Positions 611 through 38,739 of a stretch of DNA of 52,329 nucleotides are shown here, piece by piece (positions within the stretch are counted from its first letter, which is position 1; the number at the start of each line of letters is the position of its first letter). The notes beneath the pieces were generated by a model. The model did no database searches. It was not told the origin of the DNA and was given only the letters and a program-made list of their open reading frames with translations. A program made the translations under genes and the position numbers. Source of the stretch: Eremomyces bilateralis CBS 781.70 (lineage: Eukaryota; Ascomycota; Dothideomycetes; Eremomycetales; Eremomycetaceae); NCBI RefSeq assembly GCF_010015585.1, contig NW_022985111.1, forward strand, positions 1 through 52,329, in the 5' to 3' direction.

Positions 611-1633
611 TCAGCTATCTCTCTGCTTAAGGCTTGCCCAGAAACTATGCGCCCAGTCCGAAAGATCCGCTGCAGTAAAGACGACGTCATCTTCTGGCAG
701 TACAGGGGGTCGGAGAATGAGATCCTGAAATTCTAGAATCAGAGGCGATCCATTCACGGCATATGATGAGGCGCCTTGCTGGATGGTGATGGTTGGTTGA
801 GCAGTAGGAGCTGATTGTCCAGTGGGATTTGGCGAAGCGGCCTGATTTTGGGTAATCGTAATCGTTTGCATATTTGTCGGAACTGGGGGGTTGGGATTTG
901 GGTGTGCTCTGGTAACCGGATGTGCAGGAGCCGGAGAAAGGCACCACTTTTCAATATATAGCCTCTTCTGCGGTGGCATTATTGAGATGATGATAACAAT
1001 CCTCACATCGCCTCTAGAGTTGCTTAGCCACCATTGTGCGTCAATTCTCAGACGATCAAGCCCTTCAGAAAGTCCAGACTCGATAACAATAGTTGGCCAA
1101 TCATCTTTCCAGTCTCGGGAGGCTGGTTTATATGCTGAATCGCCCTCCTTCGAGGAGTTAGGACGATTGAATTTGGTTCCGCCAATAGGAATAAAGGTTC
1201 TTTTCCGTAGGCCCATTCTATTCAGCTCCAATATAAGGTCCTCGGCTAGTGAGAGGTGCGCAATTTCGTGTTCCGCCGAGGGCATTAGTTTAATAATCAA
1301 TAGGTCGATATCCGTGTGATGAGTTATCCGAGTATGCTTCCCTATCATGGCGCGCTTATTGTCTATCTCCGCAAGATCATCTTTTGTGACACCCCGAAAA
1401 ACAAGGTACTGCTGATTCGAGCGACCGGCCATTAACTGAGTAGACTGTGACTTGATACGCCACTGTAGATTTCGGAGTCCTTTGTATTGATAGATTAGGA
1501 CGTCTTTTAGTCCATCCATGGACGAAGTCTCTGCCAGCGATGTCTCTTTCGATGATGCACCCGTACCGGAGGATGACCGTGACATGGGTGCAGATGCATA
1601 TAGGCCATCAGTAGGTCCGGCAAATGTAGCCAT
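611..1633 (-). CDS. lineage-specific fungal protein, possible restriction-endonuclease-like core
   Basis: Intronless, 340 residues, starting at MATFAG; the frame is open a little further upstream but has no other ATG. The N-terminus is Ser/Thr-rich and probably disordered (about residues 1-40). A folded core follows at about 40-235. It contains WPTIVIESGLSE (about 180-191), then DAQWWLSNS and a beta strand of the IVIIISI type. This ESG plus D..WWL pattern recurs in a family expanded in Aspergillus/Penicillium-type genomes and resembles the strand layout of Uma2/PD-(D/E)XK nucleases; that link is my inference. A Pro/Thr/Gln-rich linker (about 245-290) precedes a conserved tail with LILEFQDLILRPP and a final Trp-rich helix. 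I see no signal peptide or membrane segment. The real gene call is fairly firm; the function is unknown. Confidence 0.7.
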   Translation of the reverse strand: MATFAGPTDGLYASAPMSRSSSGTGASSKETSLAETSSMDGLKDVLIYQYKGLRNLQWRIKSQSTQLMAGRSNQQYLVFRGVTKDDLAEIDNKRAMIGKHTRITHHTDIDLLIIKLMPSAEHEIAHLSLAEDLILELNRMGLRKRTFIPIGGTKFNRPNSSKEGDSAYKPASRDWKDDWPTIVIESGLSEGLDRLRIDAQWWLSNSRGDVRIVIIISIMPPQKRLYIEKWCLSPAPAHPVTRAHPNPNPPVPTNMQTITITQNQAASPNPTGQSAPTAQPTITIQQGASSYAVNGSPLILEFQDLILRPPVLPEDDVVFTAADLSDWAHSFWASLKQRDS

Positions 1634-2472
1634 GTTGAGGTTCAAGGGCCAGAGCAGGCCGGAACGAATAATGAAGGAGCAGTGAGAGATGATGAACGCT
1701 TAATTAGAGTAGCCCTTCAGTGGAGAGGTAATGTGTGGATGCGGACGAGGATTGGCTTCCTGAGAGAAATAGCTTTAATTAGCGTAAGTTTTCAAAGGTG
1801 TGAGTGAAGTTCGAGCTAAGGGGCTATGCTTGAAAGGGAATGCCCCGGAAACTAGGACTAAAAATGGCAAAGCACGCTGAATTAGAAACGGCGCGCTAAA
1901 TCCAAAGAGGTAGTCCCAGGTTCTCAAATTACAATCACAAAGAAAATTTACTTGGGATATCCAGCTGGTTACCATGTCTTGGCATGAACATTCCTCCCAA
2001 GGCATGGTAAGCGAGGCTTAGCCTAGTTAAGGCGAGGTGGTGGGTGGGTCCAAGGGCACGGATACATGGCTTCAAACGTATTCGCACATCGAAACGGCAA
2101 TGAAGTGCATCATTGAAAGATCCCATTAAAGGTGAATTTGTTAAAGCACATGATTGAAATTCTATTAAATCGGCCAGCTCAATGACGGTACCTCGATTTT
2201 GGCGTGGAATACAGTAGCAGAGCAGCTAAAAATTAGGCAGCAGTGCTACCCGTGACAGTGGACTATCACTAATTACGGTCTACTGCAATAACCCATCTAG
2301 CAAAGGCGTAAGAAACCGACCCTATTCCATCCTTTGGAAAGAGAAATCCAGCACACTTTTGATGCTCATCATCTTCACGCGCGTCCGATATCATTCCATC
2401 CTTCCGATCCAGAACACACATGCGACAGGCGGATCCATAGCGGTCCGCTCAACCCAGTAATTTGCCCAAGTG
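1634..2472. other. intergenic, AT-rich
   Basis: Nothing codes convincingly here. It holds the divergent upstream regions of the genes on either side. Base composition is low in GC (about one third in the row 2101-2160 by direct count), in sharp contrast to the gene starting at 2473. Confidence 0.4.
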
Positions 2473-2955
2473 ATGGCACAAAGCGAGCCAGTGGCAGAGT
2501 CAATGGGCATATCCAGACGCCCGCTCACCCCTGAATGGAGCATAGAACTCGATGATTCTTTCGTCGCGCGGGTGATCGATGGCGAACTGCGGATGCTCTC
2601 CATGGGGCCGCCCGTCCGGACGATCTGGTTCATTGTGTGGTGTACACCGGAGGAACCGCATACCGACACCCTCAACCGGATCATGGATAACGCGCACCCG
2701 TCGCCGAAAGAGCGGTTCATTGAAGTTGGTGCCGACGAGGACGAGGTGCGGTACGGCTCGTGGTACCCCTCCACAGTCAGCGGCCACCACCAGTGGGGCC
2801 TATACGGGTACACGATGCGCCACGGTTCCTACGTCCAAGCGGCCTTCCTAACCGATGAGGAGTCCGACCGTGACTGGGCGCTGGCTGCCTGGCGGTCTCT
2901 ACGTTATGCGGGGCCGGTCGGAGGAAATCGGTCTGCTGGGGGTGGACTGGGATAG
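2473..2955 (+). CDS. GC-rich intronless gene of bacterial character, unknown function
   Basis: 160 residues from the ATG at 2473 (a GTG lies just before it in frame). It is a compact single domain rich in Trp and acidic residues. Landmarks are FIVWCTPEEPHTDTL, a GSWYPSTVSGHHQWGLYGYT stretch and a tail reading DWALAAWRSLRY. That style, with aromatic strands ending in a WALAAWRSLRY helix, reminds me of short hypothetical proteins of actinobacteria; this is recollection, not a search result. Direct counts give about 62-65% GC in rows 2581-2640 and 2701-2760, against about one third in nearby non-coding DNA. There is no intron, signal peptide or membrane segment. The last dozen residues are Gly-rich and may be extra to the domain. 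It could be a horizontally acquired gene; its role is unknown. Confidence 0.5.
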   Translation: MAQSEPVAESMGISRRPLTPEWSIELDDSFVARVIDGELRMLSMGPPVRTIWFIVWCTPEEPHTDTLNRIMDNAHPSPKERFIEVGADEDEVRYGSWYPSTVSGHHQWGLYGYTMRHGSYVQAAFLTDEESDRDWALAAWRSLRYAGPVGGNRSAGGGLG

Positions 2956-3699
2956 AAAGATTCTCGTAACCAGGTCGTGCGGAAATGCCGCCAAAAACGG
3001 CGTTACAAACCACCGAAAATGGAGGTCACACTGCCGTCAGATTGTTTAAAAGAGTATTATCTAGAATTATTATGTAGAATGCCTTCTGAGATCTAAGATC
3101 CTCGAATGAGCGGTGAAGCTGAGGGCATCTCAGGAGATGCCTGGACTCAAATGATAAATATATCTCCACCCAACCTCCACAATTACAGGGAGATGCCGCA
3201 GAGGTGCGATGGCTGTTCCGTGTTCGCAGCACAGCATTGGATCGGAACAATTCATCTTCATGCAATTTGATATCTAGCAATTCCGGGTGCCTACCCTTTT
3301 CCGCACTCTTTCCCAGTATTTCCCACTATATACATACAATACGACTCTAGTTAGAGCGTGGGATATCCGATTCTGAAACAGTATAAAGTAATCAAAACGC
3401 CGTCGCTGTGCTTGCTTGAACCCAACCTGTTCATGACATTCGTTCCTTCCTTTTTCCAAGCATTCCTAGCCTGGAATATGTGCAAATCGGAGGTGCATTT
3501 CACACAATGCGTCTGTCATGAGGACGTCAACGAACCATGAGACATGCGTCTCGACCGCTCCAATGCGGCCTCCATACCGTATACGACTCATCCGCGCAGG
3601 CGGAAGAGCCGTTATATCCAAAAGGGCATGTCCAAGAAGAAGAAGAGACATGATTAACAACAATCCAACCACAACCCAGGACTCCGCGCGACGGCCATG
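2956..3699. other. intergenic, no clear gene
   Basis: Only short unsupported frames occur. One on the minus strand at about 3466-3672 begins with a hydrophobic stretch, but it overlaps the likely 3' region of the small membrane gene and shows no family features. Confidence 0.3.
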
Positions 3700-3843
3700 T
3701 TAAGCCGAGACTTCACTTTCTGTTGTGTCTCTTCTTGCTGAAATGCCCAACCGATCCGAGAGGAGGTAGATGCTAAACCCGACGGCGGCTATCACGATGA
3801 AAAGGACGAGAACGATGATAAATATGACAATGTTCTGCTTCAT
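3700..3843 (-). CDS. 47-residue single-pass membrane peptide
   Basis: A short open frame of 47 residues. It starts MKQNIVIF, continues as an almost unbroken hydrophobic helix (about residues 5-28) and ends in a charged tail (DRLGISARRDTTESEVSA). This layout, with few polar residues outside, a membrane anchor, then Arg-Arg and an acidic Ser/Thr tail, suggests a tail exposed to the cytosol or lumen of an endomembrane. Small single-pass proteins of this kind are common and poorly annotated in filamentous fungi. The frame is too short for length alone to be evidence. The support is its hydrophobic pattern, clean start and stop, and a GC level above the flanks. No family is recognised. Confidence 0.4.
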   Translation of the reverse strand: MKQNIVIFIIVLVLFIVIAAVGFSIYLLSDRLGISARRDTTESEVSA

Positions 3844-4691
3844 GGCTGCGAGAGGGTCCGGAGAAGGACCTGGCTGACTTGTGGGGGAATCGCGGAGTGG
3901 GATGTGTTGGATACGAGATCTTTGGCGAGAAATATCGGTCGTATATCGGTCGTTAAATGGGTATTAGATGTTCAGGAGGCAACCGGTGTGTTGGAGTGGA
4001 GGTCAAGAAGCCTGACATGCAGTTAGTTCCTGCATCCTTGTGGAACCAGATAAGAGTTTAACTCACCAAGAGGAAATATAGCTTCGGATATCAGCCTTGA
4101 GGAACAGTACGGATATTCTGTTCGGAATTTGGGACCGCTGTGAGGGAATATGGGGAATATGGACAATACGACCGGAGGTGGTCGTTTCTGTGCGGTGACT
4201 GTGCTGCGAGGTTGGCAGGAGAGGATTGGATGGCTCAAACGCTGTGTCAAACAATAACTGTACAGAGTGGTGGTATGGTATGCGAGTGAAATATACAAAA
4301 GTCACAGCAGCAGCAACCTGCCGCCCGCGGGGAGGACTGAACAGTTAAAGGCTGAAAGTAGGAGGCAGATTAACAGTGAGGTTGGGCAAACAGATCAACA
4401 TTTGGCTGGGCGACGTGTGGGGCGGGGGCTGGGGCCAGGGGTTGGGGGCCCAGCCACCAGATGTGTGGCTGGTGATGCGGGGTGCCATGTCACGTGCATA
4501 TTGCTGACAGGGCCCCTCAGGCAAATGAGGCAATTAATTCAATATTGTTTGTTTACATAATCGTCACGATTAAATCGATCAAAAACCAGACATCCCTCCC
4601 TTTATTATCGTGAACCAAATAACTATAGAAAGTTACAAATAGGAAGTAAGTCTTTCTTCAGTTCGTATTCTCTTATGCTCTACTATATACT
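3844..4691. other. intergenic
   Basis: It holds the upstream region of the small membrane gene and the 3' flank of the biotin carboxylase gene. A GC-rich patch near 4410-4470 and an AT-rich patch near 4540-4680 are visible, but no gene. Confidence 0.4.
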
Positions 4692-6805
4692 CTATAGCTT
4701 GGCCTCTACTCTCGGCCCTTCACCTTCGACTTCAGCAGCCAGCGTCCCTTCCGCTACTTCTTCGCCGTCCTCCGCTTCAGTTACCCAAGTGATTCGCCCT
4801 GTCCGATGTGCTCTCACCTCCAACTCCATCTTCATCTGCTGCACGACGCAGACGACATCGCCTTCCTTCACAATGTCTCCTTCGTCCACAAGCACCTCCA
4901 CAAGCTTGCCCGGGAACGGGATGATGATGTGGGCCGGATTCTTGGGATTCCCCTTGCGCTGCGTGCTGGTCGTGGACCCGGCACTGGCCGTGGTGCTTTG
5001 AAGAGCCAGCTTATATGGCGTTGGCTTCGTCGCGCCGCTGGGTGTGTACATGATCTCTGCCGTCATTGCCGTCGGGAATTCATTTCGCAACACCTTGATG
5101 AGCTGGAGATGATTCGTCACGCTTGCGTTCGGATCATCGCGAGGGGCCAGGGTGAGGGACCAAGCATCGCCTTTGCGGAAGAGAACGCTCGTTTGGCCAA
5201 AAGATGCGCCCTGGGAGGATGAGTCGGCCAGAACTTGAAAGGTGCGAGGTGCGCGTGCGGTGATCGACTCTCCAGTCTGTAGAAGTTCCACCTGCGTGGC
5301 CTCCAGCCATCGAGTATCACACTTCCCAGCTAGGAAACTAGGGTGGGAGACGATACCCTTGAGTACATCAAGATTGGTTTTCACTCCTTCGATCCTCGTG
5401 TCGACGAGCGCCCTCTTGGCCTTGGCCACCACATCTTCCCATGACAGAGCTGTCACAATGATCTTCGCCAGCAGACTATCGAAATCGGTGCTGACCATTG
5501 CTGAATGGCCAGAAATCAGGTTGGTGTCGACTCGAATGCCATTTCCACTGGGGAAGTGGAACGACGAGATCTTCCCTATGCTGAGGGACCAATCGTTTTG
5601 AACGTTCTCCGCCGTGATGCGGAGCTGCACTGACCGAAGGGCAGGAGGTTCAGCCGGATTCTGCGTGGTTTGTGACATGAGCTCGGAAATTCTCGCTCCA
5701 TGAGCCAACCGCAGCTGCAGCTTGACAATGTCATGGCTTGTGATCGACTCGGTTATGGTGTGTTCAACCTGCAACCTCGGATTGACTTCGAGGAAAAAGA
5801 ACTCCTTCGTTTGAGGGTTCGCGAGGAATTCGAACGTCCCCAGTGACCGGTAGTTGATCTGAATCAACTAGTCAGCATTCAAGTGACCTACGAGGTATGT
5901 TTTCAAACTTACGCTTCTCGCCATGCTCACAGCAGACTCGATAACTCTCGCAACGAGTGCCCGGTCTGTTATCGAACTAGGCGCAATCTCCACTACCTTC
6001 TGATACCTCCTTTGTATGCTGCATTCCCGCTCCCAGAGATGTCGTACGTCCCCATTGCCATCGCCAACGATCTGAATCTCGATATGTCGGTATCCGTCAA
6101 CTGCAGCTCGCTCAGCAAAGACTTGCTTCGAAGGGCTCTCTTCAATGGCTCGTCTAGCGGAACTCTCCAGCTCTTCTTCCGACCGAATCAGACGAATCCC
6201 TCGTCCACCGCCACCGTCCACGGCCTTGACCATGATGGGATAGCCACATTGGCTTGCGAATTTCTGGAGAACTTGTATGGAGTTTGTTGGGGTGGTCAAT
6301 GCCGGTAGAGTTGGCACGTTGCCTATTTAAAATCAGCAATCGGATAGCAAAAGACATGGACAAGTCTCGCACATGCTGCTGCCAATTTCTTCGCTTCAAG
6401 CTTGTCGCCGGTGCGAAGCAAAATCTGGGCACCTGGCCCGATAACAAAAGCTCCTGTTTCCTGCTCGACTCGCCGTGCAAATTCCGCCGACTCCGACAAG
6501 AACCCGTATCCCGGGTGCACGGCTTCGATTCCATGGCTTTTGACAATTCCAATAATTTCCGCGATGTCCAGGTAGGATGCGGGAGAAGCGAGCTTTAAGG
6601 CATGGTCGGCCCCAACAGTGTGGGAGTTGTCCTCGCCGGAATATATCGCGAACGTTTCAAGTTCCAGTTCCCGTGCGCTGGATATGATTCTCGTAGCAAT
6701 CTCGCCTCTAGGATATATCTCAGTCTCGTTTCATTTGTTTCATTCATGAGATGAGTCGACAGACCTGTTGGCAACAAGGAGGTTCTTAAATGGCCTCGAA
6801 CTCAT
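4692..6805 (-). CDS. acyl-CoA carboxylase, biotin carboxylase plus biotin-carrier subunit, PTS1 end (-AKL)
   Basis: Exons on the minus strand: 6805-6765, 6707-6373, 6322-5913, 5858-4692; 650 residues. All phases agree. The donor at 6372 (GTGCGA) is the weakest site. It carboxylates enzyme-bound biotin with ATP and bicarbonate. The N-terminal lobe has NLLVANRGEIATRI and HPGYGFLSE; the ATP-grasp part has the GGGGRG loop and a CSIQRRYQKVVEIAP segment; the active-site motif EVNPRLQVEHTITE follows. The C-terminal carrier domain has QQMKMELEV, with biotin Lys at about 605; the family usually reads EAMKM. There is no mitochondrial presequence. The last three residues, AKL, fit the peroxisomal PTS1 pattern. 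It lies head to head with the carboxyltransferase gene, so the two are surely partners. A methylcrotonyl-, geranyl- or propionyl-CoA-type substrate is possible; which one is not shown. Confidence 0.9.
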
Positions 6806-7062
6806 CTTCAAGGATTCGATATACGCGGGTTTACTTCTGGTTTTGGTAGAGGCACGTTACTTGGTGTCAGATATCACGTCTTAGCTTACCAGTCAACAGC
6901 TGTTAAAGGGAACTGTTCACTAAAATGGACGATATCCGAACTATGTATATCTTTAAGTATATTTGTAAACGCCGAATATCCTATGCTACTCTCCGAGCAA
7001 AACAATCCATGGTGGCTTGGTCCGGTTGAAAACGTGGGGTCATCGTGGGGCAGGAAGGGGCA

Positions 7063-7068
7063 CCGAGG
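7063..7068 (-). promoter_or_regulatory. CCTCGG core, FarA/FarB-like site 1
   Basis: An exact CCGAGG on the plus strand. A six-base match alone is weak. Its position in a promoter for CoA-ester metabolism, with a second copy 45 bases away, raises the chance that it works. Confidence 0.4.
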
Positions 7069-7107
7069 CATTGACGATTGATCTCCATAATACCCCAGCT
7101 TTACTCC

Positions 7108-7113
7108 CCGAGG
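7108..7113 (-). promoter_or_regulatory. CCTCGG core, FarA/FarB-like site 2
   Basis: The second exact CCGAGG, in the same orientation as the first and closer to the carboxyltransferase start. Confidence 0.4.
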
Positions 7114-7240
7114 TCCCCATACGTAGGTGACGGACAGTCGCCGCTAATACACAGCGAAATGTAAATGTTGTGATGGTGCTGTTCCTTGCAGCAGGTTTAG
7201 TATCTGAACGACTCTTGGGTTATCCGGGTTGCAATTGAAG

Positions 7241-9150
7241 ATGGGTGCAGACGACAACTCCTCCAACGCGACAGCGCGTCTGTCGCAACTTTCTTCGCAT
7301 ATCTCTCCAAAGAACGCGGACGAGAGAGGTGCTGAACAACAGACGAAGACACGATCTCGACGAAAGAAGAATGTCGACAATACCCTCCCTCCCGACTACT
7401 CGGACATCCTGGGCCAGATCACCTCGCTCCAGAAGATGGCCCTCACGCCTGATCCCACGAATCGAGGGTACAGCCGACAAAAGCAAGCGGGCAAGCTCTG
7501 GGTGCGTGAGCGGGTGGAGCAATTGCTCGACGAAGGGTCATTCCGAGAGGTCGGGAGCGTGAGTGGGACGGTGGAGTGGAAGAAAATCGCCGCGGCGCGA
7601 GAGAAGCCGGTGTCATATGTCCCTTCGAACAACGTGCAAGGGTTTGGGAAGTTGAGAGGTCGGACGATCGTGTTCACTGCGGATGATTTCTCGATAAGAG
7701 CCGGGCATGCAGATGGAGCGTTGATGGATAAGACCGTGAGTATGATCCAACATTGACCGTCATATGGCCGCTGACAGTCAATAGTTGTACATGGAGAAGC
7801 TGGCCGTCGCCTTAAGACTGCCGATGGTCAAGCTTGTGGATGGATCGTCTGGTGGTGGATCCGTCACCACGATTCGCACGAACGGGTTCTCATATATTCC
7901 CCCGATGTCCGCCTTCCCCCCAGTAATCGAGCAATTGAACATGGGCATACCCAATCTGGGCGCCGTCCTAGGTCCTGCGATCGGTCTAGGCGCGGCTCGC
8001 GTCGTCGCATGCCACTTCTCCGTCATGGCGGCAGATATCGGCAGTTTATTCAACGCTGGGCCGAATGTCGTTGCGGGTAATTCCCCCGGTGCGTGAGTTT
8101 GCGATCACGATAGCTAACGAATCCAGGCGCCACATTCGAGGAAGGTCTCAGCTTCACGGAGTTGGGCGGCCCCGCGATGCACTGCACTAACGGGACCATC
8201 GACAACCTCGCTGCGAACGAAGCGGAATGTTTTGAGCAGATTCGAACCGTTCTGGAATACCTTCCAAACTCCGGCTTCAGCGCACCGCCATCGGTGCCCG
8301 TGGAGGACCCGGTAAATCGAAGCTGCCCAGACCTCCGGACCATCATCCCGAGAAAGCGGGAGCGAATGTATAATGCTCGAAAGATCATTACGTCTGTGGT
8401 CGATCAAGGCTCCTGGTTCGAGATTGGTTCTTTGTGGGGAACGACCGCGATATGCGGCTTAGCCAGGTTGGGAGGCTATCCGGTTGGGATCATCTCACTG
8501 AATTGCGAAGGTGAGTGTCGACGGCCGGCAAGGGGTTTTCATTTTGCTGATCAGTCACAGTGAACGCCGGCGCGCTGGATGCACTTGGCTCCCAGAAGCT
8601 CAATCGACACCTGAAGTTCCTTGATATTTTCAATATTCCTCTACTTCAGTTCGTGGACGTCCCGGGGTATGCGATCGGGACATCCGCCGAACGCACCGCG
8701 ACCATGAGACACGGCGTAAACCTGGCCGTAACTTACTACTCCACGACGATCCCGATCTTCAACGTCGTGACGCGAAGAGCGTATGGCGTCGCGGGCGGGA
8801 TCATGCTCGACTCCCGCGACCCTCGGCAAAGAGTCTGCTGGCCCAGCGGTGAATGGGGTAGCCTTCCGCTGCAGGGCGGCATCGACGTCGGCCATTCATT
8901 TGAGCTGAAGGAGATCGAGCGGAAGGAGGGCCTGGCGAAACGAAAGGAGCGGTACGATGAGCTGGACGAGGAATATCGGCGGCTGATGAATCCGGTGCGG
9001 ACGGCGAACCATTTCGGGGCGGAGGAGATTATCGACCCGGCCGATACGCGCTATGTAGTGTGTACGTGGGCAAAGCACTACTACGATGAATTGCTCCCGA
9101 TTCGTCTTATGGAACGGACTGGGGGGAAGATTCATCCTTCATTTGCATGA
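7241..9150 (+). CDS. acyl-CoA carboxylase carboxyltransferase subunit, PTS2-like N-terminus
   Basis: Exons 7241-7735, 7785-8076, 8127-8510, 8561-9150; 586 residues. All junction phases agree and the introns are 49-50 bases. It transfers CO2 from the biotin carrier to an acyl-CoA. The N-terminal crotonase-like half has GKLWVRERVEQLLDEGSF, VTTIRTNGF and GPAIGLGAARVVACHFSVM. The C-terminal half has FLDIFNIPLLQFVDVPGY, TRRAYGVAGGIM and the tail FGAEEIIDPADTR. The layout is that of the PccB/MccB family. The second oxyanion loop reads GVAGGIM where GGAY..M is usual. Residues 13-21, RLSQLSSHI, fit the PTS2 pattern R-L-X5-H-[LAF] except for the final Ile. There is no mitochondrial presequence. The biotin carboxylase gene on the other strand is its partner. 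Confidence 0.9.
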
Positions 9151-12213: not shown

Positions 12214-12228
12214 ATGGTCTCTCATTGA
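12214..12228 (+). promoter_or_regulatory. second short upstream ORF before eRF3
   Basis: A four-residue frame (Met-Val-Ser-His, then TGA), out of frame with the main start and 107 bases before it. Whether it stays in the mature mRNA depends on the transcription start and any leader intron. Confidence 0.35.
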
Positions 12229-12335
12229 ATTTTCCCCTGGCCGACGAAGAATCCATCGAGTCACTCCTGGCTATCTCTTCGTCCTTTCACCACCTCCGCT
12301 ACCTGTCTTCGAATCCCCTTACGACCGAACCGACC

Positions 12336-14616
12336 ATGGCGGACCTTAATTCTTGGGAAGACGATAAAGACGCCCAGGATGATGCCAACCTTGCTCAGAG
12401 GACAGCGCAACAGCTCCAGATGAACGCTGGTCCTGGAGGGGCATATACGCCGAATGTTGGTGCAAATTCCTTTCAGCCAGGCGCCTCGTCTTTCCAGCCC
12501 CAAAATTATGGCCAATATGGTGGATACGCTGGTGGGCAATATCAGCAATCCTACGATCAAACCGGATATAGTGGGCAACAGCAACAATATGGACAATACC
12601 AACAGTACAATCAACAAGGCTATGGCGGCTATGGTGGGCAACCCCAAGCTGGGGTTTACGGCAACTACCAGGCGCCACCACCGCAGCAGGTCTCACAGCA
12701 AAGACAGACTCCGGTCATTGCAAAGAGACCAGCTGGCGAATCCGATCCCTCTGCCGCACCGAAATCACAAGAGAAACCTGCCTCGGGTGCACCCCCTAAG
12801 GCCAAGGTGTTGTCTGTGACTGGAGACACTTCCGCCCCTCCTAAAGCTAAGGTTCTCTCTATTACCGGTGATACCAAGACTCCAAAGGTTGAAAAGGCTG
12901 GACAAACGAAAGTTTTGACTTTGGGAACCACTGTCCCGCCAGCGTCTCAGTCATCGGCGAAGGAGAATGTCGACAAATCCGAACCTGCAGCCGGATCCAA
13001 AGTCACGGCGGCGAAGGCTCTGGAGAAGGCCGGCGAGGGTTCCTCCTCATCGCCAACTGCTGGCTCCGGGAAGTCTTCTCCCACGGGACGAAGCAGCCCA
13101 GGACGCAGCAGTCCTCAACGAGCAGAGGCCCGTCAAGCGGCTCGGGTAGCCGATGCAGTCCAGAAAGAGCAGGAGGACTTGATCGACGAAAATACCCTCA
13201 AAGAAATCTACGGAAAGGAGCACGTCAACGTGATTTTCCTGGGTCATGTCGATGCGGGGAAGAGCACTTTGGGCGGAAGCATCCTTGTCGCGACGGGAAT
13301 GGTTGATGAGCGAACCCTGGACAAGTACCGAAGAGAGGCGAAAGAAGCAGGCCGAGAAACCTGGTACCTTTCGTGGGCCTTGGATCTGACCAAAGAGGAG
13401 CGCTTGAAGGGCAAAACGGTCGAGGTTGGGCGAGGGTTCTTCGAAACCGACAGGCGGCGCTATAGTATCCTCGATGCTCCTGGCCACAAAACCTTTGTTC
13501 CCAACATGATCGGAGGTGCTAGTCAGGCTGATGTAGGCGTACTGGTCATTTCGGCACGAAAGGGCGAATACGAGACCGGCTTTGAAAAGGGTGGGCAAAC
13601 AAGAGAGCATGCCATGCTTGCGAAAACGCAGGGTGTCAACAAGCTCATCGTGGTTGTGAACAAGATGGACGATATTACCGTGGAGTGGAGTGAGGAAAGA
13701 TATAAAAACATCCAATCGAAGCTCACGCCTTTCTTGAAAGGCGTCGGATACAATCCAAAAGGTGAGGATCGAACCGGCAATTATGTGAAACGTACTGACA
13801 GACGCAGATCTTATCTTCATGCCGGTCTCCGCACAAACAGGGTTGGGAGTGAAGCAACGCGTTACCAATGACAAATGCTCATGGTACGATGGGCCTTCAT
13901 TGCTTGAAACGCTGGACAACATGAAAACCCTGGAACGCAAGCTCAACGCCCCATTCATGATGCCCATCGCCGCCAAGTATAAGGACATGGGCACCATGAT
14001 TGAAGGCAAGATTGAGTCGGGAGTCATCAACAAATCCGGGAATTACCTGATGATGCCGAATCGAGAGAGTATCTCGATTTCCGCACTCTACGGTGAGACC
14101 GAAGAGGAGATTCCGCGATCCGCCTGCGGTGACCAGGTCCGGCTCCGGATTCGCGGCGCTGAAGAGGAAGACATCCTGCCCGGATTTGTCCTGTGCTCTC
14201 CGAAGCGACCGGTCCATTGCGTCAACGCGTTCGAGGCGCAGATCGTCCTGCTGGATCTGAAGTCGATCTTGTCCGCCGGGTACAACTGCGTCATGCACGT
14301 GCACGCGGCGACGGAAGAGGTCACGTTCACCGCCCTCCTGCACAAATTGGAGAAAGGCACGGGACGCAAGAGCCGAAAGGCGCCCGGGTTCGCCACGAAG
14401 GGAATGAGCATCATCGCCCGATTGCAGATCACCGGCGCATCGGGCAATGTGTGCGTGGAGCGATTCGAGGATTATCCTCAGCTTGGACGGTTCACATTGA
14501 GGGATCAGGTTCGTGATTCGTGTTCTTCGTATCGGGTGTTTACTGACAATATCCAGGGACAAACCATCGCCATCGGGAAGATCACCAAGCTTATTACTGA
14601 TGAGACCCCTGCGTAA
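12336..14616 (+). CDS. sup35: translation termination factor eRF3 GTPase (Sup35)
   Basis: Exons 12336-13761, 13808-14508, 14557-14616; 728 residues. The second intron (48 bases) is open in frame, so it is easily missed; family alignment (FTLRDQ joined to GQTIAIGKITKL) shows it must be removed. With eRF1 the protein releases finished peptides at stop codons. The start MADLNSWEDD matches fungal orthologs and has an ACCATGG context. Residues of about 50-125 are Gln/Gly/Tyr/Asn-rich with NYGQYGGY-type repeats, like the prion-forming domain of yeast Sup35. The charged middle has a tandem 15-residue repeat around PPKAKVLSVTGDT. The GTPase has GHVDAGKST (about 303), DAPGH and NKMD. Beta-barrel domains 2 and 3 follow and end FTLRDQ..GKITKL. 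Confidence 0.95.
12789..12875 (+). repeat. tandem repeat in the eRF3 middle domain
   Basis: Two diverged copies of a 45-base unit encode PPKAKVLSVTGDTSA and PPKAKVLSITGDT. It is in frame and part of the coding sequence. Confidence 0.7.
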
Positions 14617-35330: not shown

Positions 35331-38300
35331 ATGTCCTATAACCGCCTCGGTGAGTAACGCTGTCATTTCTATTCCTCCTCTCGGTCCCATGGTTCGGGGA
35401 ATTCGATGCTCCAGTTTGTTAGAAGTTGGACCCTCGACCCATTTGTTTGTCTGTGGATCCTTCAAAGTTCAAACCTTTAAACATTAGTGCCTTACCGTCG
35501 CCCTTACATACAATATCCGCCCCCCCCGCATTCCTCCCCTAATCTACGCCAAGGGATGCGCAATTTCCTTTGGCTCCTCATACATTTTCATACACTCGTT
35601 TCATCGTTCGACGTTTCTGATTATTTCCGCTAACATCTTTCGCTGTCGCTCAAGGCTCTGTTGGCGGCCACACTGACGACGATTACGACGACCGATACCA
35701 CGCCTCCCAGGAACAGGTCCCGATGAACAACCTCCCACAGAATCGAATCGCCTCACCTGGGCACCCGAATCAGGGTTACCAGCTGGAAGAACGCTATGGC
35801 TCGCCGTTAGAAATACCTGTCGGTCCTGGTCCCGGTCCAGGCACGCCATCGGATCGATTACAAGGGCAGCCGACCGTAAGTCGACGCGACGCGATCATGG
35901 TTCAAAGCGCATAGCTGACGTGTCTTTATCAGTATTCGGTCGAGGGAATGCACAATTCATTCGGCCATAACGAACAATACGACACCACCTATCCCCCTCA
36001 ACACCAGCCCCGTCCAGGCGACTATGCCCTCAACCCCGACGACCACCATGACGCATACTTCTCGCAACCGTACAACCCTTCGCCGCAAGAGGGCCGGCCG
36101 CAAGAGGGCCGGCCGCTCAATCAATATTCCTCTCAGGAAGGAGGATGGCACGACTATGATGACGATAGGCCAATTCTCCAACCCGACAATGTCTACGGTC
36201 CGGATCCCCACAGCCCTGCCAGTCCACATGCGCAGGATCCCTTCCAAGGTGCATATACGGACGCGGCTCCTCAACCGACCCCGAGCCCTGCGCCGGTGCC
36301 GATTCGGAGATGGAAGACCGTCAAAGAGGTGCAATTGTTCCAGGGCAACCTCGTCCTCGATTGTCCCATCCCTCCCCGACTCCTGAATCAAGTCCCGCAT
36401 GCGCAAGCTCCGGAACGCGATGAATTCACCCACATGCGCTACTCCGCCGCGACGTGCGACCCGTCGAACTTTTTCGAGGAGCGCTTCACGCTGCGCCAGC
36501 GGCTGTTCGCCAAACCGCGTCATACGGAGCTGTTCATCGTCATCACCATGTACAACGAGGAGGACGAGCTGTTCGCGCGGACGATGATCGGCGTGATCAA
36601 GAACATCGAGTACATGAATTCGCGCACAAGCAGTAAGACGTGGGGAAAGGATGCCTGGAAGAAGATCGTCGTGTGTGTGGTCAGTGACGGTCGTGCGAAG
36701 ATCAATCCGCGAACGAGAGCCGTCCTAGCTGCCATGGGGGTTTACCAGGACGGCATCGCGAAGCAGCAGGTCAATGGGAAGGACGTGACGGCGCATATCT
36801 ACGAGGTACGTCAACCCTATCCAAAATCATTCGACGCATATTGACACAGCACAGTATACGTCGCAGATGGCGCTCGAGATCAAGCGTGGCGTGGTCCAGG
36901 TGAAACGAGGAAGCACCCCGATTCAGATGCTCTTCTGTCTTAAAGAGAAGAACCAAAAGAAGATCAATTCGCATCGATGGTTCTTCCAGGCGTTCGGTAC
37001 CGTGCTCGACCCGAACATTTGCGTGTTGATCGACGCCGGCACGCGTCCCGGGAAGGATTCCATTTACCATCTGTGGAAGGCCTTCGACCTGGAGCCGATG
37101 TGCGCCGGGGCGTGCGGTGAGATTAAGGCCATGTTGAATAAAGGCAGGAACCTTATCAATCCCCTGGTCGCGACGCAGAATTTCGAGTACAAGATGAGCA
37201 ATATCCTCGATAAGCCGTTCGAATCCGCCTTTGGCTTCATCTCCGTGTTGCCCGGCGCCTTCTCCGCCTACCGATGGATGGCGTTGCAGAACGACAAGAC
37301 CGGACAGGGACCGCTCGAGAAGTACTTCCTTGGGGAGAAGCTCCACGGCGCCAACGCCGGCGTTTTCCAGGCGAACATGTACCTGGCCGAGGATCGAATC
37401 CTCTGCTTCGAACTGGTCTCCAAACGCAACTGCTCGTGGATCCTGCAGTACGTCAAGTCCGCTAACGGCGAGACGGACGTGCCCACGGAGATGTCCGACT
37501 TCATCCTACAGCGTCGTCGATGGTTGAACGGCTCCTTCTTCGCCGCGGTGTACGCCCTCGCGCACGCGTTTACCATCTTCCGCAGCGACCACTCGTTCCT
37601 GCGAAAGGTCATGTTCCTGTTCGAGTTCCTCTACCAAACCATCAGCATGATCTTCGCCTGGTTCGCCATCGGAAACTTCTTCCTGGTGTTCCGTATTCTG
37701 ACCGACTCGTTGCGCGACCCGCTGCTGCTGGGGACTGCGGGGAGGATTTTGGCGATCGTGTTTCAGTGGCTGTATGTGGCGGTGCTGGTCACTTGTTTCG
37801 TGCTCGCGCTGGGGAACCGGCCGCAGGGCTCGAATAAGTTTTACATGAGCATGGTGTACTTCTGGTGTCTCATCATGGGGTACGTTCCCTTTCTTCGTGA
37901 TGCGTCGACAAGCTAACGGCTCATAGGTATCTGATGTTCGCATCGATCTACATTACGGTGCGGGGCATTCAAGAGGAGACCAAGGATGGCGATTTCAGCG
38001 TCTCGGAACTCTACAAGAACCCGCTCTTCTTTACGCTTATTGTGTCTCTTCTCTCCACCTACGTCATGTACTTCATTGCATCCTTCCTCTTCTTTGACCC
38101 ATGGCACATGTTCACTTCGGTAAGTCCCCTGAACATTCTCAAAATGACCTGAAGTTGACGTCTCTTCAGTTCATCCAATACCTCCTCCTAACCCCGACGT
38201 ACATCAACATCCTCAACGTCTACGCCTTCTGCAACACCCACGACATCTCCTGGGGTACCAAAGGCGACGACAAAGCCGAGAAGCTCCCCTCCGCTAACAC

Positions 38301-38739
38301 CAAGCCCGGCGGTAAAGTCGCCGTCGACATCCCCACCGACGACGCCGACCTCAATACCCAATACGAGACTGAATGCCGCGTCTTCGCCTCCAAGTACGAG
38401 GTCCCCAAGAAGATCCCCTCCCCCTCTGACAAGCAGGAGGACTACTACAAGGGCTTCCGCAGCGCCGTCGTGCTGCTGTGGATGTTCACCAACCTCGCCC
38501 TGTGCGCCGTCGTGCTGGCCACGGGGGGGCTACAGGTCTCCGTCGATCCGGAGAAGCGGGATGAGGACTCGAATAATCGGGCGAAGATCTACATGGCGGT
38601 TATCCTGTGGAGCGTGGCGGGACTGAGTATGGTGCGGTTTATCGGCGCGCTTTGGTTTTTGATTGTGCGCATGGTGAGTCTGCCCTCTTCCCACACTTCT
38701 TCGATCCCAACTAACCTCCGCTAGTTCCGCGGTGTCTAA
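35331..38739 (+). CDS. chitin synthase (class I-III type)
   Basis: Exons 35331-35349, 35655-35875, 35933-36805, 36855-37879, 37927-38119, 38170-38673, 38725-38739; 949 residues. The first exon has only six codons plus one base (MSYNRL), before a 305-base intron; the last has five codons (FRGV and stop). All phases agree. It polymerises N-acetylglucosamine from UDP-GlcNAc into chitin at the plasma membrane. The first 200 residues are disordered and rich in Pro, Gln and Asp. The catalytic domain has [39 protein letters not shown] and the QRRRW signature. About seven membrane segments follow, with [19 protein letters not shown] between two of them. The core fits classes I to III; I cannot fix the class from memory alone. 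Confidence 0.95.
36083..36112 (+). repeat. 15-base perfect tandem duplication in the chitin synthase gene
   Basis: Two identical 15-base units encode PQEGR twice in the disordered N-terminal region. Confidence 0.85.

Follow-up and report, generated by a model that had tools for sequence, protein, structure and literature searches.

The 52,329-nucleotide stretch of Eremomyces bilateralis CBS 781.70 considered here (contig NW_022985111.1, positions 1 to 52,329; hereafter the window) contains two divergent genes, one encoding a biotin carboxylase fused to a biotin carrier (BC) and the other a carboxyltransferase (CT), which probably form an acyl-CoA carboxylase. BC ends in a candidate type 1 peroxisomal targeting signal (PTS1), and CT begins with a nonapeptide resembling the type 2 signal (PTS2). 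The pair extends, with exact coordinates, from the BC stop codon at 4692–4694 on the minus strand to the end of CT at 9150 on the plus strand and comprises the following features.

4692..6805, minus strand: BC gene, biotin carboxylase and biotin-carrier subunit, 650 amino acids; exons 6765-6805, 6373-6707, 5913-6322 and 4692-5858 (spliced model, Pfam, PDB relatives)
7241..9150, plus strand: CT gene, carboxyltransferase, 586 amino acids; exons 7241-7735, 7785-8076, 8127-8510 and 8561-9150 (spliced model, Pfam, PDB relatives)
6806..7240, no strand: divergent intergenic region common to both start codons, 435 bp (gene-model coordinates)
4695..4703, minus strand: AKL, C-terminal tripeptide of BC, PTS1 candidate (spliced model)
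7277..7303, plus strand: RLSQLSSHI, CT residues 13-21, PTS2-like nonapeptide (spliced model; recurs in a second CT on contig C13 and in the thiolase of the same genome)
4830..4832, minus strand: lysine 605 in QMKM, predicted biotinylation site of BC (sequence motif; Biotin_lipoyl domain)

Both genes are modeled with four exons, and their introns, all GT..AG and 49–57 bp long, leave the reading frames intact. The CT start was taken as the first methionine of a frame that opens only 11 codons upstream, while BC starts right at its catalytic domain. BC matches the Pfam domains Biotin_carb_N (105.6 bits), CPSase_L_D2 (195.7 bits) and Biotin_carb_C (104.6 bits), all above cut-off, followed by a Biotin_lipoyl domain (49.6 bits) in which the MKM lysine, Lys605, is present. 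CT matches Carboxyl_trans at 266.9 bits over profile positions 2–476 of 493, that is, nearly the full domain. Spliced models and domains thus bear out the two-subunit acyl-CoA carboxylase proposed in an earlier sequence-only reading of the window, which had also assigned one peroxisomal signal to each subunit.

The first of these signals is confirmed in the spliced model, where BC ends in GPRVEAKL and fits the PTS1 pattern [SAC][KRH][LM]. In Histoplasma capsulatum AKL, SKL and ARL are the commonest and preferred C-termini of Pex5-dependent proteins, AKI is sufficient, and the residues preceding the tripeptide show no preference (PMC13343957). The nonapeptide of CT fits the relaxed pattern [RK][LVI]x5[HQ] within the first 40 residues, with a hydrophobic residue at position 5; as the earlier reading already pointed out, isoleucine at position 9 departs from the stringent motif, [RK][LVI]x5[HQ][LAF], whose central residue is hydrophobic (PMC7710942). 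The same source describes valine and methionine at position 9 in PTS2 signals judged likely functional though not yet validated, and a protein with a canonical PTS2 that did not leave the cytosol in one expression system. The Histoplasma thiolase Pot1 contains RLSQVTSHL within its first 40 residues, a segment that drove Pex7-dependent peroxisomal import of TurboID (PMC13343957). Neither subunit has an obvious mitochondrial presequence, again as proposed earlier: the first 30 residues hold 3 K/R and 4 D/E in CT and 5 K/R and 3 D/E in BC, and these simple charge counts speak against such a presequence. The methylcrotonyl-CoA carboxylase beta chain (MCC-beta) of the same genome, its start set by eye, has 6 K/R and 0 D/E over the same length.

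Given the amino acid composition of five E. bilateralis proteins, R-L-x5-H-[LIVAFM] is expected within the first 40 residues at a rate of ∼0.0016 per protein (∼0.16%), a loose PTS1, [SAC][KRH][LMI], at ∼0.004 per protein (∼0.4%) and an exact AKL at ∼0.00035. A coarse DNA pattern for the PTS2-like motif, run over the whole genome (26.6 Mb in 62 contigs, labeled G000), occurred at 32 places against 51 in the reversed control. At 7 of the 32 places the pattern reads RLSQxxxH with an aliphatic residue or F next to it, and three of these seven are the N-termini of recognizable genes, namely a thiolase and two CTs. The thiolase (L032/L051, G000 C10:559577-560478) begins, in an open frame, QPPTAQE-RLSQVSNHV, which suggests that E. 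bilateralis accepts valine at position 9. The second CT (L003:1261-3203 on contig C13; 596 amino acids, N-terminus MTNKDVPPPPSTATSRLSQITSHISP) is 54% identical to that of the window and has RLSQITSHI at the equivalent N-terminal place, the shared RLSQxxSHISP block being identical at 9 of 11 positions, the tail after it at 14 of 51 and the core at 287 of 505. Because the organism's own thiolase has valine at position 9 and the paralogous CT bears the same signal, isoleucine at this position of the window CT is less of a weakness. Two Pex14_N matches in the genome also count in favor of a peroxisomal assignment.

Among solved structures, the 15 best matches of CT, scoring 224–200 bits, are beta chains of acetyl-CoA carboxylase (ACC), propionyl-CoA carboxylase (PCC) or acyl-CoA carboxylase and carboxyltransferases with similar names, compared with 133 bits for the best MCC-beta, 123 bits for the single-chain long-chain acyl-CoA carboxylase (LCC; 4rcn) and 115 bits for geranyl-CoA carboxylase. 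Since some ACC/PCC chains in the same list score only 117–120 bits, this affinity is a lean rather than proof. A branched or isoprenoid acyl substrate, suggested earlier, is accordingly not favored, and the affinity for ACC/PCC instead favors carboxylation of the acyl-CoA at its alpha carbon.

A tree of 45 rows from 46 aligned, rooted at the midpoint for drawing, groups the window CT with the C13 CT (support 100/100); the 35-row clade that contains them (100/98) excludes the organism's own MCC-beta, which joins L069/L070 at 100/100, and the PCC-like rows. The separation agrees with the view that CT lies outside the MCC clade. One row, L079, was dropped as the same protein as L068, and rows aligning over ≤430 residues (L080, L111 and L072_1) had been omitted beforehand; the tree program flags the window CT for composition and several rows, the single-chain CT most of all, as long branches. 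Within the clade, 32 of the 35 rows have a two-residue insertion with GGGS[VI] and 33 have WPSxxWGS, with the fungal pair in both counts. At the position that sets substrate choice in PCC, Asp422 in Streptomyces, the window CT reads YGVAGGIM as against YGGAYVVM or YGGAYLAM in the PCC-like rows, and the smaller residues could admit a longer acyl chain.

The bacterial members of this clade emerged from a scan of genome contigs with two short peptide patterns, which gave five confirmed loci among 76 stretches and led to G001, a metagenome-assembled genome titled Acidimicrobiia; in a scan of viral contigs 25 stretches matched and none proved a relative. Of 296 genomes from the class of G001, searched with four candidates scored per genome, 37 contain relatives of CT at E ≤ 1e-95, with scores reaching 517 bits and identities of up to 45% (for example G076, G251 and G241). 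Inspection of the starts of three bacterial relatives showed that these begin near the fungal core and lack the signal-bearing N-terminal extension of ∼50 residues, which places that extension on the fungal side; in the other bacterial rows the called frame extends further upstream and the start is unsure. In 12 fetched neighborhoods, annotated with a simple gene caller that picked CT in 11 of them, no BC lies beside CT and no other gene family occurs in three or more. Among the bacterial rows, the branch closest to the fungal CTs, a long one, is a 1190-amino acid open frame on contig C2 of G001 (L076, L124) with fused BC, biotin and CT parts, an arrangement that fits a CT of the window type working with a biotin carboxylase. 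The top match of BC in 15 bacterial genomes is a 1182-amino acid frame in G001 (45%) that also has a CT match, with a 1155-amino acid frame in G076 nearly equal (42%).

The E. bilateralis genome contains at least five carboxyltransferase genes, those of ACC and MCC-beta (both by eye), a single-chain protein, the window CT and the C13 CT. The single-chain protein (L022, G000 C1:1607500-1614500, frame 1625-5029, minus strand) has 1135 amino acids, starts directly at its BC domain, is 44% identical to the window BC, ends RRSAKI and is homologous to single-chain LCC along its entire length (719.6 bits against PDB 4rcn). MCC-beta, with its charged N-terminus, lies on contig C2 of this genome, and an MCC-alpha-like gene is also present. 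Close to the MCC-beta gene (L021, G000 C2:202877-208000), and in the opposite orientation, lies a gene for an acyl-CoA dehydrogenase that by eye is isovaleryl-CoA dehydrogenase, an arrangement resembling a leucine-degradation cluster. Genes resembling 3-hydroxy-3-methylglutaryl-CoA lyase were also located, their ends not being readable. Other biotin-carboxylase-like genes recognized by eye encode pyruvate carboxylase (PYC), MCC-alpha, urea amidolyase, a purine-pathway ligase and the single-chain protein; ACC and the carbamoyl-phosphate synthases on C17 and C18 were tentatively assigned from the hit pattern. Among these biotin-carboxylase-like genes no free BC belonging to the C13 CT was recognized, and the window BC is therefore likely the partner of both CTs. 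A search for methylmalonyl-CoA mutase gave no match in the genome, with controls ringing in 8 of 14 cases, which makes a route to succinate unlikely; conversion of propionyl-CoA into succinyl-CoA was rejected as a pathway on this ground. Elsewhere in the window, inspection by eye suggests an eRF3/Hbs1-like GTPase at 12225–14616 and a chitin synthase at 35948–38724, both of them ordinary neighbors in a fungal genome.

We consider it likely, judging from sequence, that BC and CT are the alpha and beta subunits of a biotin-dependent acyl-CoA carboxylase working in the peroxisome, with the second CT probably sharing BC. In the mechanism we propose, BC would be biotinylated in the cytosol and enter the peroxisome via Pex5 by its -AKL end, an order of events made possible by the capacity of peroxisomes to import folded, cofactor-bound and oligomeric cargo (PMC3781343). 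CT would enter via Pex7 by its N-terminal RLSQLSSHI; alternatively, the assembled BC-CT enzyme may enter by either signal. Once inside, BC would carboxylate biotin using ATP and bicarbonate, and CT would transfer CO2 to the alpha carbon of an acyl-CoA to give a malonyl-CoA type product, the C13 CT, by probably sharing the window BC, widening the substrate range. The enzyme may serve synthesis by providing malonyl- or alkylmalonyl-CoA, or it may regulate how acyl-CoA is used. Whether the peroxisome holds a whole carboxylation system, with one Pex5-imported alpha subunit, two alternative Pex7-imported beta subunits and the single-chain LCC imported by -AKI, we rate as evenly balanced.

Several observations weigh against a peroxisomal BC-CT enzyme. 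The usual context of biotinylation is A/S-MKM, as in the single-chain protein (EAMKME) and MCC-alpha (ESMKME) of this genome, whereas BC has QQMKME (4824–4841, minus strand) with an atypical Q before MKM. The best match of BC among solved structures is pyruvate carboxylase (379.6 bits), as is its best NCBIfam model (554.4 bits, below the cut-off of 965), and tracing by BLAST gives similar scores to several families without a clear lineage signal linking BC to the window CT, so that their pairing rests on the gene arrangement and the lack of another recognized free BC. As to targeting, -AKL directly follows a glutamate, the conserved block around the nonapeptide is borderline in the paired CTs (5,635 of 100,000 shuffles of tail columns reach such a block), and the text consulted on Histoplasma peroxisomal proteomics mentions no endogenous biotin proteins besides PYC and MCC. 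In Magnaporthe some PTS2 proteins predicted by regular expression are cytosolic or mitochondrial (PMC3237427), and such over-prediction, together with isoleucine at position 9, outside [LAF] (PMC7710942), would suit a cytosolic acyl-CoA carboxylase making a malonyl-type extender, with both signals due to chance or vestigial; lacking an obvious mitochondrial presequence, the pair would by default reside in the cytosol. Such an enzyme is unlikely in our estimation, given that the nonapeptide recurs in the paralogous CT and the thiolase and nearly matches the tested Histoplasma signal (PMC13343957), and that multiplying the composition rates gives a probability of ∼7e-6 for one pair to carry both signals by chance.

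Assignment to a mitochondrial MCC or geranyl-CoA type enzyme, gamma-carboxylating in leucine or isoprenoid breakdown, as the substrate suggested earlier would imply, could appeal to the two-subunit architecture in common and to the occurrence of MCC in fungi. We hold it to be highly improbable: the genome has MCC subunits of its own, CT scores 133 and 115 bits to the best MCC-beta and geranyl-CoA carboxylase beta chains against 224–200 bits for its 15 best matches, and the tree separates it from MCC-beta. On these structure-match scores and the tree placement, identity of the pair with either enzyme was rejected. A further possibility is that the enzyme, still peroxisomal, operates backwards or as a transcarboxylase to dispose of malonyl-CoA type products that arise when odd-chain dicarboxylic acids undergo beta-oxidation, a task performed in animals by peroxisomal malonyl-CoA decarboxylase. 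The genome gave no match to malonyl-CoA decarboxylase, in a search whose control rang nowhere and which therefore says little. In NCBIfam, CT scores highest against mmdA (methylmalonyl-CoA decarboxylase alpha), its 242.9 bits being far below the cut-off of 998.8. This reverse role appears very unlikely, in that all three biotin carboxylase domains of BC score above cut-off and indicate the forward, ATP-using direction. A forward-acting peroxisomal acyl-CoA carboxylase is the reading we favor, and the interpretation first put forward for the window is, as a whole, partly supported.

Biotin-dependent carboxylases are textbook enzymes of the cytosol, mitochondria and plastids, and our limited search of the open PMC literature found no description of a fungal peroxisomal acyl-CoA carboxylase. 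If the proposal holds, the peroxisome would make its own malonyl- or alkylmalonyl-CoA, placing malonyl-type CoA esters beside beta-oxidation and fungal secondary metabolism, and a carboxyltransferase clade of bacterial type would be at work inside a eukaryotic organelle. Assembly could then be set by both import routes, and the pair would be a clean natural test of whether two subunits carrying different import signals are taken up separately or as a complex. Should all signals work, including -AKI of the C1 protein, this fungus would have two kinds of peroxisomal acyl-CoA carboxylase.

Compared with known systems, the window pair resembles mitochondrial MCC in having two biotin-dependent subunits, and differs in that MCC is encoded by separate genes in this genome, with its CT in another clade and, for MCC-beta, a charged N-terminus. 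Single-chain LCC (4rcn) unites in one chain what is here divided over two divergent genes, and its true homologue in the genome is the C1 protein rather than the window CT. Relative to RLSQVTSHL of Histoplasma capsulatum Pot1, the nonapeptide differs at 3 of 9 positions in the window CT and at 2 of 9 in the C13 CT, all conservatively, with L rather than I at position 9 in Pot1 and a carboxyltransferase as the cargo in the window. The beta chains of bacterial two-subunit acetyl/propionyl-CoA carboxylases (for example PDB 7w5u, 1vrg and 1xnv) are homologous to the window CT over most of its length, and these enzymes likewise have separate alpha and beta subunits; unlike these chains, the window CT belongs to another clade and has the two-residue insertion in the GGGSV region and the fungal N-terminal extension with its PTS2-like signal.

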